From Acetobacter cibinongensis (GTDB lineage: Bacteria > Pseudomonadota > Alphaproteobacteria > Acetobacterales > Acetobacteraceae): a stretch of DNA of 64,000 nucleotides. The notes under the pieces were generated by a model. That model saw only the letters and a list, made by a program, of their open reading frames with translations. It was not told the origin of the DNA and ran no database searches. The first letter of the stretch is position 1. Each line of letters begins with the position of its first letter. Where the stretch lies: positions 186,001 to 250,000 of the forward strand of contig NZ_BAMV01000008.1 in assembly GCF_000963925.1 (NCBI RefSeq), written 5' to 3'. Positions 33,637 through 37,329 of the stretch are shown here, piece by piece. A program made the position numbers and the translations under genes.

Positions 33637-35031
33637 TTATGCCTTTTTACCGGTTAAAACAGCGCCCGCATTGGGGGCGAGCCGCGCGGCTGCCGGGGTG
33701 GCCAGTAACGAGATAAACCCGACCACCAGAAACGCTATGACAAAGTCATGTGGCGTGGGTTCAGAATGGAAATTCAGGATGCCCGTTAGGGTCAGGGTGC
33801 CTGCGGCAATGCAAATGCCCAAAGAGAGCATCAGTTGCTGCATGGTGGCATAAAAGCTGGTTGCGGCACTCATGCGGCTGGCCGGAATATCGGCATAGGC
33901 AATGGTGTTGTAGGCCGAAAATTGTACGGATTGCGCCATGCCGGACGCCAGCAGGATGGCTGCCAGAACCCAGAGCGATTGCCCACGATGATACTGGGCC
34001 AAAAGTGCGGCCAGTATGCCTGCGGAAAGTCCGTTTGTGACCAAAACCCGCCGGAAGCCCCATTTACGCAGTATGGCGGGCACAAATGGCCTTATGCCAA
34101 TTGCCCCAACAGGGGCCAGGAAAGTCACCATGCCGCTTTGTGCGGCCGTCATGCCGGTGCCAATTTGCAGGAAGGTTGGCAGCAGAAAGGGGAAGGCCCC
34201 CACGGCAATGCGGGAGGCTGCACCCCCTATGACCGAAATGCGGAACGTGTCTGTGGCCAGAAGGCGGAAGTCCAGCAAGGGAGCGCGGATGCGCTGGGCA
34301 TGAAGGCCGTAAATGCTCATCAGGCCCGTGCCCATCAGCAGAAGCGTGAGAATAAGGCTTTTAGTGCCCTCATTGTGGCTGAACAGTTCCGCGACAAGAG
34401 AGAGGAGGGCCAGCCCGCCCCCGGCAAGAAACATGCCCTTGAGGTCAAATGGTGGCGGATGCTTCTCCCTGACTTCCGGAATGAAGCGCCGGGTGAGGAT
34501 AAGGCCGATAATGCCAACCGGTATATTAAGGTAAAAATTCCACCGCCAAGAAAGATAGGTGGTGATAAAGCCGCCTACAACCGGCCCGAGCAGAGGGCCA
34601 AGTGTTGCGGGCAGCATCATCCACGTCATGGTGCGGACAAGCTCTTCCCGTGGGGTGCTGCGTAAAACCACAAGGCGGCCAACCGGCACCATCAGTGCTC
34701 CGCCAATGCCTTGCAATGTGCGCATACAAGCCAGAAACGTAAGGCTATGCGCGGATGCGCAGGCAACCGAACACAAGACAAACATAATAATGGCCCCGCT
34801 CAGCACGGTGCGGCTGCCCAGCCGGTCTGCCAAAGCGCCGGAAGCGGGGATAAATATGGCCAAACCAATAATATATGCAGTCAGCGCAACAGACGTTGCA
34901 ACCGTATCCACATGTAAACTGTTAGCAATGGATGGGAGGGCTGTTGAAAGAATGGTGCCATCAAGTTGCTCCATAAACAGCATGGAAGCGACAATAAGGG
35001 CTGTGAGATGAACGCGGCTGAGTGACACCAT
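33637..35031 (-). CDS. MFS drug exporter of the DHA2 (EmrB/QacA-like) family
   Basis: Inner-membrane proton-coupled exporter, 464 residues, with 13-14 hydrophobic segments. The antiporter motifs fit the 14-segment DHA2 family: FMEQLDGTILSTALPSIA in segment 1, GALADRLGSRTV in loop 2-3, and GPLLGPVVGGFITTYLSWRWNFYLNIPVG in segment 5. Unlike emrB in this window it has no adaptor gene beside it, so it may export into the periplasm, from where the neighbouring RND pump could pick substrates up. The C-terminus lies 242 bp from mdtA. Start ATG 35031; the RBS is weak. Confidence 0.85.
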   Translation of the reverse strand: MVSLSRVHLTALIVASMLFMEQLDGTILSTALPSIANSLHVDTVATSVALTAYIIGLAIFIPASGALADRLGSRTVLSGAIIMFVLCSVACASAHSLTFLACMRTLQGIGGALMVPVGRLVVLRSTPREELVRTMTWMMLPATLGPLLGPVVGGFITTYLSWRWNFYLNIPVGIIGLILTRRFIPEVREKHPPPFDLKGMFLAGGGLALLSLVAELFSHNEGTKSLILTLLLMGTGLMSIYGLHAQRIRAPLLDFRLLATDTFRISVIGGAASRIAVGAFPFLLPTFLQIGTGMTAAQSGMVTFLAPVGAIGIRPFVPAILRKWGFRRVLVTNGLSAGILAALLAQYHRGQSLWVLAAILLASGMAQSVQFSAYNTIAYADIPASRMSAATSFYATMQQLMLSLGICIAAGTLTLTGILNFHSEPTPHDFVIAFLVVGFISLLATPAAARLAPNAGAVLTGKKA

Positions 35032-35139
35032 GCTAGTCAGAGACGCGTTTTTGCGGTCTGATGCAACAGCCGACCACGCACTATTACCGCTTTTTTAAGC
35101 GGATGTGTGTGGGAACACGATAACAAAAGGAGACGCCAA

Positions 35140-35445
35140 ATGGCTGACGATAAACTGAAAAACGTGTCCAACAAGGTTGAAGGTCTGGTTGATGAAACCA
35201 AAGGACGCGTCAAAGACGCCGTGGGTGGTCTGACGGGTGATCTGGGGTTGCAGGCTGAAGGTAAGTTTGACCAGTTCACTGGCGCCGCCCAGCAGGACTT
35301 TGCTGACCTGTACGAAGAAGGTGAAGGCGTGGTGGAAAAAGCCGTGACCTTAGTGCGTGATAAACCCCTGCTGTCACTGGGTATTGTGTCCGTGGTTGGC
35401 CTGCTGGTTGGCTGGCTGCTTTTCCCACGTGGCAAACGTTCCTAA
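35140..35445 (+). CDS. CsbD-like small stress protein with C-terminal membrane segment
   Basis: 101 residues from the ATG at 35140 (MADDKLKNVSNKVEGLVDETKGRVKDAVGG) with AAGGAG as RBS. The N-terminal half matches the CsbD pattern of short repeated amphipathic helices (KVEGLVDETKGRVKDAVG, LQAEGKFDQFTGAAQQD). The C-terminus is a membrane segment ending in basic residues (PLLSLGIVSVVGLLVGWLLFPRG), like the DUF883-type protein at 23501. CsbD proteins are general-stress induced in other bacteria. Divergent from the MFS exporter; the rnhB-ccrM leader starts right after its stop. Confidence 0.75.
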   Translation: MADDKLKNVSNKVEGLVDETKGRVKDAVGGLTGDLGLQAEGKFDQFTGAAQQDFADLYEEGEGVVEKAVTLVRDKPLLSLGIVSVVGLLVGWLLFPRGKRS

Positions 35446-35454
35446 AAAAATACC

Positions 35455-35544
35455 GACTCCGAGTCTTGCGCTCGGAGTCAAAAAGTGATTCTCCTTGCCT
35501 CACAGAGTCGGTGATGGTGCGACTCGGTAATTTTAACCGAGTCG
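35455..35544. promoter_or_regulatory. Cluster of seven GANTC (CcrM) sites in the rnhB-ccrM leader
   Basis: GANTC occurs at 35455, 35461, 35475, 35487, 35505, 35521 and 35539, seven in 89 bp against about one per 256 bp expected. Two perfect 9-bp inverted repeats each span 25 bp: GACTCCGAG / CTCGGAGTC at 35455-35479 and CGACTCGGT / ACCGAGTCG at 35520-35544. Each arm contains a site. The sites are the methylation targets of the enzyme encoded two genes downstream, which points to methylation-dependent control of ccrM. Confidence 0.8.
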
Positions 35545-35569
35545 TTCCAAATCAGTCGAAAGAGGGGCA

Positions 35570-36199
35570 ATGCCGGATTTTACGCGGGAAATGCAACACG
35601 GTGGGCGTGTGGCGGGAGTGGATGAAGTGGGTCGTGGCCCGCTTGCTGGTCCTGTCGTGGCTGCCGCAGTCGTGTTTGCCGCTGGCGTGCCGGATGACCT
35701 GGCTGCCGTTATTGATGATTCCAAAAAACTGAAGCCAGTGCTGCGTGAGGCCATAGCCGCACGCCTGCCCACTGTGCCGGGTATTGAAATTGGGCTTGGC
35801 GCAGCTTCCACCTCTGAAATTGACGACATGAATATCCATCATGCCGCACATCTGGCCATGCAGCGTGCTGTAGCACGTCTGCCAAGCCTGCCGGATCATG
35901 TGCTGGTTGATGGCAACAAGACCCCGGATTTTGGGTGCAGCACACAAACGCTGGTTGGCGGTGACGGCCTGAGCCTGTCTATCGCGGCGGCGTCCATCAT
36001 CGCCAAAGTGGTGCGCGATCGCATCATGGCGCGTCTGGATGCCCGTTGGCCTGCTTATGGGTGGGACAGGAATGCCGGTTACGGCACGCCTGTGCACCGG
36101 CATGCGCTGACCACAGTGGGCGTCACCCCGCATCATCGTAAAACTTTCGGCACAGTACGCCGGCAACTTGAATTTTTTAACAGGGAGGGCCGGGCATGA
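35570..36199 (+). CDS. rnhB: Ribonuclease HII
   Basis: Endonuclease that nicks RNA in RNA-DNA hybrids and at single ribonucleotides in DNA. 209 residues. The acidic active site is present: [15 protein letters not shown] (Asp-Glu), [10 protein letters not shown] (Asp) and [13 protein letters not shown] further on. Start ATG at 35570 with AAGAGGGGCA upstream. It overlaps ccrM by 4 nt (ATGA), so the two are coupled; rnhB-ccrM linkage is common in Alphaproteobacteria. The GANTC-rich leader lies directly upstream. Confidence 0.96.
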
Positions 36200-37329
36200 G
36201 CGGCGCACAATCAATGGGCATGGAACTGCCTCTGGACCAGATTCTGCGCGGCGAATGTGTGGAAACCATGCGTGGCCTGCCTTCAGGCTCCGTGGACTGC
36301 ATTTTTGCAGACCCGCCTTATAACCTTCAGTTGCGTGGTGAACTGCGCCGCCCGGATGACAGTCTTGTTGATGGGGTGGATGACGACTGGGATAAATTCA
36401 CAGACCTTCAGGCCTACGACAAGTTCACGCGGGACTGGCTGACGGAAGCGCACCGGGTGCTACATAAAGATGGCACCATGTGGGTAATTGGGTCTTACCA
36501 CAATATTTTCCGCATCGGGGCTATTCTGCAGGATCTGGGATTCTGGATCCTGAACGATATTGTGTGGCGGAAGTCCAACCCTATGCCTAACTTTCGTGGG
36601 CGGCGCTTTACCAATGCGCACGAAACCATGATCTGGGTGGCAAAAAGCGAAACAAGCCGCTACCGCTTCAACTATCAGGCCATGAAAGCCCTGAATGATG
36701 ATGTGCAGATGCGGTCAGACTGGTATTTGCCCCTTTGCACCGGGAATGAGCGCCTGCGGAACGAGCATGGCCTGAAGCTGCACCCGACACAAAAGCCTGA
36801 AAGCTTGCTGCACCGGGTTATTCTGGCCTCCACCGCTGTTGGGGATGTGGTGCTTGACCCGTTCACAGGCACGGGCACAACACCGGCTATGGCCCGTCGG
36901 TTGCGCCGCCGCTTTATAGGAATTGAGCGTCACCCGGACTATGTGGCGGCTGCACGAGACCGCGTTGAGCGTGAAGTGCCACTGGCCGAGGACGCCGTAC
37001 AGGCAACGCCTGATAAGCGCGAAACGCCACGTGTACCGTTTGGTAGTCTGGTGGAGCAGGGGTTGATTGGTGCCGGTGTTGCCTTGTGTGACAAGAAGCA
37101 GCGCGTTCAGGCAACGGTTGCACCGGATGGTACGCTGGTGAGTGGCACGAAGCGCGGTTCCATTCACAAAATGGGCGCTATGCTGACAAATGCTCCCTCC
37201 TGCAACGGTTGGACATTCTGGCACTTTGAGCGGAATGGAGAATTGCTGCCTCTGGATGTGCTGCGGCAGGAAAGTCTGGCCTTGGCACAACAGACTATGG
37301 AAATGGCGTTACAAACGGCGGTTGGCTAA
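36196..37329 (+). CDS. ccrM: Cell-cycle regulated DNA adenine methyltransferase (GANTC-specific)
   Basis: Methylates adenine in GANTC; in Alphaproteobacteria its timed synthesis late in replication links methylation state to the cell cycle. The 377-residue product is a beta-class N6-adenine methyltransferase. The catalytic [16 protein letters not shown] motif comes first (about residues 37-52) and the SAM-binding [13 protein letters not shown] later. It follows Caulobacter CcrM closely through [39 protein letters not shown] and HPTQKPE. The C-terminal extension with [12 protein letters not shown] and [13 protein letters not shown] is the domain specific to CcrM orthologues. Followed by a bidirectional terminator. 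Confidence 0.96.

Follow-up and report, generated by a model that had tools for sequence, protein, structure and literature searches.

In Acetobacter cibinongensis, rnhB and ccrM are encoded as a coupled unit downstream of a csbD-like gene, within the stretch of 64,000 nucleotides analyzed here (the window), which lies on contig C113; the genome (3.1 Mb, 120 contigs) encodes both gcrA and ccrM. Among rnhB genes with a species name, the closest relative was that of Acetobacter orientalis (89% identity; the window's own genome was perhaps outside the search). A first-pass annotation had described rnhB-ccrM as the only nearby operon, which needs correction with regard to the csbD-like left neighbor on the same strand, which ends at 35445. 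The gap of 124 bp between the csbD-like gene and rnhB contains seven GANTC sites and two inverted repeats, IR1 and IR2, among the following features (leader counts refer to the genus alignment described below).

35146-35445, plus strand: csbD-like gene, left neighbor of rnhB
35455-35479, plus strand: IR1, perfect 9-bp inverted repeat GACTCCGAG/CTCGGAGTC around TTGC, span of 25 bp
35455-35459, unstranded: GANTC (GACTC), clade specific, in the 5' arm of IR1; 2/44 leaders
35461-35465, unstranded: core GANTC, -109 relative to rnhB; 44/44 leaders
35475-35479, unstranded: GANTC, clade specific, in the 3' arm of IR1; 2/44 leaders
35481-35504, plus strand: tract rich in pyrimidines that may act as anti-Shine-Dalgarno strand, weakly so in the window
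35487-35491, unstranded: GANTC at -83, subclade specific; 13/44 leaders
35505-35509, unstranded: GANTC core site at -65; 44/44 leaders
35514-35550, plus strand: IR2, perfect 9-bp core within a 15-pair genus stem, with 13 pairs formed in the window; conserved
35521-35525, unstranded: GANTC core site at -49, in the 5' arm of IR2; CGACTCG matches the GcrA motif (YGAKTCG) on the opposite strand; 44/44 leaders
35539-35543, unstranded: GANTC core site at -31, in the 3' arm of IR2; CGAGTCG fits the GcrA motif YGAKTCG; 44/44 leaders
35558-35567, plus strand: Shine-Dalgarno-like purine run GAAAGAGGGG, 5' of rnhB, read from the sequence
35570-36199, plus strand: rnhB (RNase HII)
36196-37329, plus strand: ccrM (N6_N4_Mtase and RAMA), overlapping rnhB by 4 bp

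All seven GANTC sites noted at first inspection were found in place within 89 bp (35455, 35461, 35475, 35487, 35505, 35521, and 35539), as were both perfect 9-bp inverted repeats with their spans of 25 bp. GANTC is a rare site in this genome: the whole window holds 62 copies versus 187 expected from dinucleotide shuffles, and two stretches of the same genome totaling 450 kb hold 476, or 1.06 per kb. Array aside, no 89 bp of the 450 kb examined contained more than three sites; the only ones with three were at G000:C113:49911 and at three places on G000:C104. The Poisson chance of at least seven GANTC in a given 89 bp was ∼9e-12. The enrichment claimed earlier was thus real, but its magnitude ("about twenty times" the random expectation) was too low, since we obtained ∼28-fold against shuffles and ∼78-fold against the real genome density. 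The pattern GACTC-N13-GAGTC occurred only once in the genome, at the array, and a related pattern with up to two mismatches likewise had a single occurrence.

Conservation was analyzed across 49 genomes of the genus, all of which had a ccrM match at an E value of ≤0.001 (weak only in G035, which is 68% complete). Leaders taken from 48 genomes and from named Acetobacter contigs yielded 74 sequences, 48 of them distinct, with four starts corrected or checked by hand. A csbD relative was present upstream in 47 of the 48 distinct sequences, as well as in many other loci of the family, and the order csbD-rnhB-ccrM was kept. The alignment comprised 44 distinct leaders, as L114, L150, L151, and L152 were left out for want of the arrangement: L114 has two sites before rnhB, and none were counted in the other three (the starts of L151 and L152 being uncertain). 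In L151 and L152, rnhB and ccrM are separated by ∼85 nt and ∼126 nt, respectively, and L152 has two GANTC before ccrM.

The sites at -109, -65, -49, and -31 were kept in all 44 aligned leaders, equivalent to 44 of the 48 distinct genus sequences. Also invariant were TTGC immediately 3' of the -109 site, the CGACTCG that contains the -49 site, and CGAGTC at -31. Conservation of the array in relatives, one of three points on which the first-pass annotation could have been refuted, therefore holds for these four sites but not for the other three, which were present in 2, 2, and 13 of the 44 leaders. As a general pattern, an array of seven had to be given up: 18 leaders contained four sites, 15 contained five, 8 contained six, and only 3 contained seven (the window, L005, and L140, the last at other positions), so that four or five is the usual number (33/44).

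The core arms of the 3' repeat IR2 (CGACTCGGT/ACCGAGTCG, 35520-35544, span of 25 bp) lie inside a 14-nt, 86% repeat pair at 35515-35549. Across the genus, the outer arms vary and are mostly complementary (GATGC/GCATC, GGTGC/GCACC, GAAGC/GCTTC, GAGC/GCTC, GGTAC/GTACC, and AAAC/GTTT). Outer-arm cells were paired in 191 of 272 cases (70%), compared with 33 to 45% in slid registers; in the right register, the outer stem was 78.6% paired and reached a score of 0.322. When all stem cells of the 34 distinct rows were considered, 88% were paired, compared with 28 to 41% after sliding. Cells with a double change numbered 33 versus 13.4 in shuffles, and the covariation score was 0.208 versus 0.126. Three of five covariation measures lay above all shuffles and two did not, the latter being pairs with a double change (5 versus 4.7) and further pair types (14 versus 14.6), both at shuffle level. 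On the rnhB tree of the 44 leaders, parsimony yielded 12 double changes of the compensatory kind, 11 of them in the outer arms and 1 inside, together with 24 pair-breaking and 14 restoring changes, in a simple count without an error model. Six stem pairs, which include both GANTC sites, showed no variation in the 34 distinct rows, where base pairing by itself would have tolerated change. Fold energies were more than 2 SD below those of shuffles in 40 of 44 leaders, with L115, L139, L140, and L153 as exceptions, and Rfam covariance models gave no match in 34900-36300 at E values of up to 1. In place of the -49/-31 hairpin, the site at -49 could instead pair with that at -65 (35505-35525), and two such pairs appeared in the consensus fold.

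Outside the genus, the hairpin of Gluconacetobacter-type loci is often extended by GAATC/GATTC. In L116, L118, L121, and L124, the second (3') site reads GGTTC and the stem is kept via a G-U pair (fold z of -3.4 to -6.3). The second site is also lost in the Gluconacetobacter-type loci L119, L120, L126, L127, and L131, here with a mismatch in the stem (z of -1.8 to -0.2); L122 has a broken inner stem. Weighed together, these loci distinguish a constraint on pairing from one on the site and favour RNA, in which a G-U pair is stable. L157, L158, L159, and L169 kept three to five sites and showed no notable hairpin (fold z of 0.0 to 1.1).

Both repeats had been suggested to form hairpins in the mRNA leader. 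For IR2, compensatory changes are what such folding would lead one to expect; for IR1, covariation was equivocal, and GANTC occurred in both arms in only 2 of 44 leaders. The IR1 score of 0.251 exceeded that of shuffles; a register slid by -2 gave a near-equal 0.234 with 29 versus 26 double-change cells, and the region hardly folded in seven leaders (L058, L139, L144, L146, L147, L149, and L153). IR1 was accordingly not retained among the conserved structures. Together with an adjoining T-run (35453-35481), it scores as an intrinsic terminator on the minus strand; judged by eye, this T-run is not kept in relatives. Neither IR1 nor IR2 was predicted as an intrinsic terminator on the plus strand, and no T-run follows either of them on the csbD strand.

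For 36 of the 44 leaders, folding predicted a helix that masks the Shine-Dalgarno run (pairing of >0.5), with a median pairing of 0.86 versus 0.21 in shuffled leaders. A leader's own masking strands paired at -15.3 kcal/mol versus -12.4 kcal/mol for swapped strands, a shuffle that ignores relatedness, and a control with the reversed strand came close, at -14.2 kcal/mol. Pairing was 0.41 in the window and ∼0.2 in L005, L006, L007, and L009, and the register varied between clades. Given the close reversed control, the clade-dependent register, and the low value in the window, we regard this helix as no more than a possibility.

We then placed the cluster in the context of the family and the class. 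ccrM was found at 1e-80 or better in 279 of 299 family genomes, 271 of these outside the genus. Among the matches listed, one contig (G253:C262:11825-16046) carried two divergent, equal-scoring ccrM matches, possibly an assembly artefact. Among the matches listed, 89 family loci from outside the genus were compared (87 from these genomes and 2 from named Gluconacetobacter contigs); rnhB was not found in the fetched stretch for 14, leaving 75, several of which are from the same genus or near-identical and hence not independent. Expected counts for family and class were derived from base composition, the window's own genome being depleted in GANTC. Since intergenic GANTC is generally >1.5-fold over-represented in these bacteria (PMC3973325), such expectations are somewhat low for gaps.

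Where rnhB and ccrM were <45 nt apart (49 family loci), the 130 nt before rnhB contained 166 GANTC versus 21.8 expected, with at least two in 43 of the 49. At the 26 family loci with a wider gap, 18 GANTC preceded rnhB versus 10.1 expected (at least two in 5 of 26), and 15 were located in the 130 nt before ccrM. Because these gapped loci have few GANTC before either gene, the site-cluster device seems to be absent from these mostly basal genera of the family. By eye, many basal Acetobacteraceae loci (L186 to L216) have a TTGACGCG-type motif before ccrM and few GANTC.

At class level, ccrM matches of 1e-60 or better came from 83 of the 114 genomes. From the best 50 outside the family, 40 were sampled, one per family (L241 to L280); of the ten omitted, some lay near contig ends and the rest had no reason of this sort. 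rnhB was located upstream of ccrM in 37 of the 40 loci, and the 120 nt before rnhB held 9 GANTC in these 37, where base composition gives ∼15. At the 31 loci with an rnhB-ccrM gap of >40 nt, the gap itself contained 88 GANTC versus 12.8 expected (ccrM starts being estimated). In 30 of the 40 class loci, the pattern TTGAC-N1-6-GANTC lay no more than ∼250 nt ahead of ccrM, with a second GANTC after it in 21; the remaining 43.7 kb of the class stretches held the pattern once and the version with a second GANTC never. Taken from these sequence comparisons, the cluster tends to follow the ccrM promoter, standing before ccrM where the gene is separate and before rnhB where the two are coupled, basal genera of the family excepted. 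Such tracking fits the proposal, made for Caulobacter, that ccrM autoregulation is sensitive to methylation.

The invariant TTGC at 35466-35469, directly after the -109 site, is a possible -35 region. When the aligned leaders were inspected by eye under several -35/-10 readings, no -10 box common to all clades was found downstream of TTGCGC. A full CtrA box (TTAA-N7-TTAA) was present in 0 of 44 leaders, and the half-site TTAACC/GGTTAA was present in 24. The suggestion of ccrM control as in Caulobacter is supported in part, by a cluster that tends to follow the ccrM promoter; with the full CtrA box of the Caulobacter scheme absent, the activator may differ from that of Caulobacter. GcrA is reported to act at methylated promoters with YGAKTCG, elsewhere given as YGAKTCK (PMC7987155). 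Each of the 44 leaders contained at least one site fitting YGAKTCG. In the window, the sites at -65 and -109 did not fit it, and that at -109 fitted the looser YGAKTCK.

How the cluster is read can be judged from these data against several explanations. It is possible, if somewhat doubtful, that the sites form nothing but a GcrA-activated promoter, without negative feedback, in which a high density of GANTC simply makes activation following replication more likely. The genome encodes gcrA, the core sites at -49 and -31 fit its motif, and published work describes GcrA binding to methylated promoters and activating them (PMC8116508, PMC7987155); on the other hand, the window's other two core sites depart from YGAKTCG, and there is no recognisable -35/-10 pair to which most of the sites would belong. 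A constraint at the RNA level alone, with GANTC incidental to a leader hairpin and GACTCG/CGAGTC merely a convenient stem, would account for the covarying outer arms of IR2 and for the four loci that kept the stem despite losing one site. It would leave unexplained why the six stem pairs with both sites never vary where pairing permits it, why the -109 and -65 sites outside the hairpin are just as constant, and why L157, L158, L159, and L169 retain their sites at fold z values around or above zero; we consider it unlikely.

The symmetry of the repeats would also suit operators of a dimeric DNA-binding repressor, and the minus-strand score of IR1 with its T-run recalls a terminator, here as part of csbD termination. 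Both variants are very unlikely: the IR2 arms underwent repeated symmetrical changes in a single genus, as would not be expected of an operator, and a csbD terminator is at odds with the missing T-run on the csbD strand and with the loss of the minus-strand T-run in relatives, as seen by eye. Apart from its repeat form, nothing speaks for a functionless repeat, a mobile element, or a mutational accident, and with a position fixed throughout the genus this explanation has a negligible probability; a repeat or mobile element was rejected on the single genomic occurrence.

The conserved GANTC cluster most likely lets CcrM regulate its own production. More specifically, we think it fairly probable that the region is the control region of the coupled rnhB-ccrM unit, in which methylation by CcrM of the GANTC cluster in promoter and leader acts back on transcription of ccrM. 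GcrA, an activator that reads methylation, would probably mediate this feedback, together with the half-methylated state in which replication leaves the DNA. We infer both an effect of methylation state on rnhB-ccrM transcription and its direction; repression of ccrM by full methylation would be an idea carried over from Caulobacter. In the simplest reading, a methylation-sensitive promoter and leader would couple the level of CcrM to replication and to CcrM itself.

Since two core sites lie in hairpin arms kept by compensatory changes, the leader is probably transcribed and folded, and the IR2 fold may affect ribosome access or mRNA stability. More tentatively, and with the chances rather against it, the same bases may be used twice, as CcrM sites in DNA and as the arms of a conserved rnhB-ccrM mRNA hairpin that would hinder access by ribosomes. 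The methyltransferase would then be restrained through promoter methylation and message folding alike, possibly with CcrM or another protein bound to the hairpin. CcrM is reported to be inactive on single-stranded RNA (PMC6787082), and a contact between CcrM and the hairpin would for that reason mean binding rather than RNA methylation. Beyond the genus, the comparison suggests a GANTC-bearing promoter for ccrM in many alphaproteobacterial families. Where rnhB and ccrM are fused, acetic acid bacteria being a case in point, this promoter lies ahead of rnhB; autoregulation thereby becomes an idea that can be tested in many species.

In the literature surveyed, the case for CcrM feeding back on its own expression comes from Caulobacter. 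A 1995 study of the ccrM promoter is said to lie behind the methylation control of ccrM described for this organism, whose ccrM control region has two GANTC sites in a scheme that uses CtrA. Transcription of Caulobacter ccrM is reported only from the hemimethylated chromosome (PMC2217572), and ccrM itself is named as "most probably" a target of control by methylation (PMC3973325). A literature search, with most subscription papers outside its scope, retrieved no paper joining Acetobacter, GANTC, and methyltransferase, nor one joining ccrM and rnhB; the class-wide pattern of the ccrM promoter may be in print elsewhere.

As in Caulobacter, GANTC sites are present here at the control region of ccrM itself. 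Unlike in Caulobacter, they precede rnhB, which overlaps ccrM, and number four to seven rather than the two of that organism; moreover, a full CtrA box is absent and a conserved hairpin spans two of the sites. The locus also resembles the GcrA/CcrM promoters ctrA P1, ftsZ, and mipZ in having GANTC in the promoter region, a CGACTC context that is conserved here and shared with ftsZ and mipZ (PMC3708114), and both gcrA and ccrM in the genome; it differs from them in that the cluster extends into the leader and belongs to an acetic acid bacterium. With mRNA leader hairpins that control translation or stability, it shares a stable hairpin shortly before the Shine-Dalgarno run and compensatory changes in the stem. 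In contrast to known hairpins of this kind, it has no Rfam match and its arms double as DNA methyltransferase sites. If confirmed, this overlap of site and hairpin would be unusual, with one sequence under selection for both DNA methylation and RNA structure.
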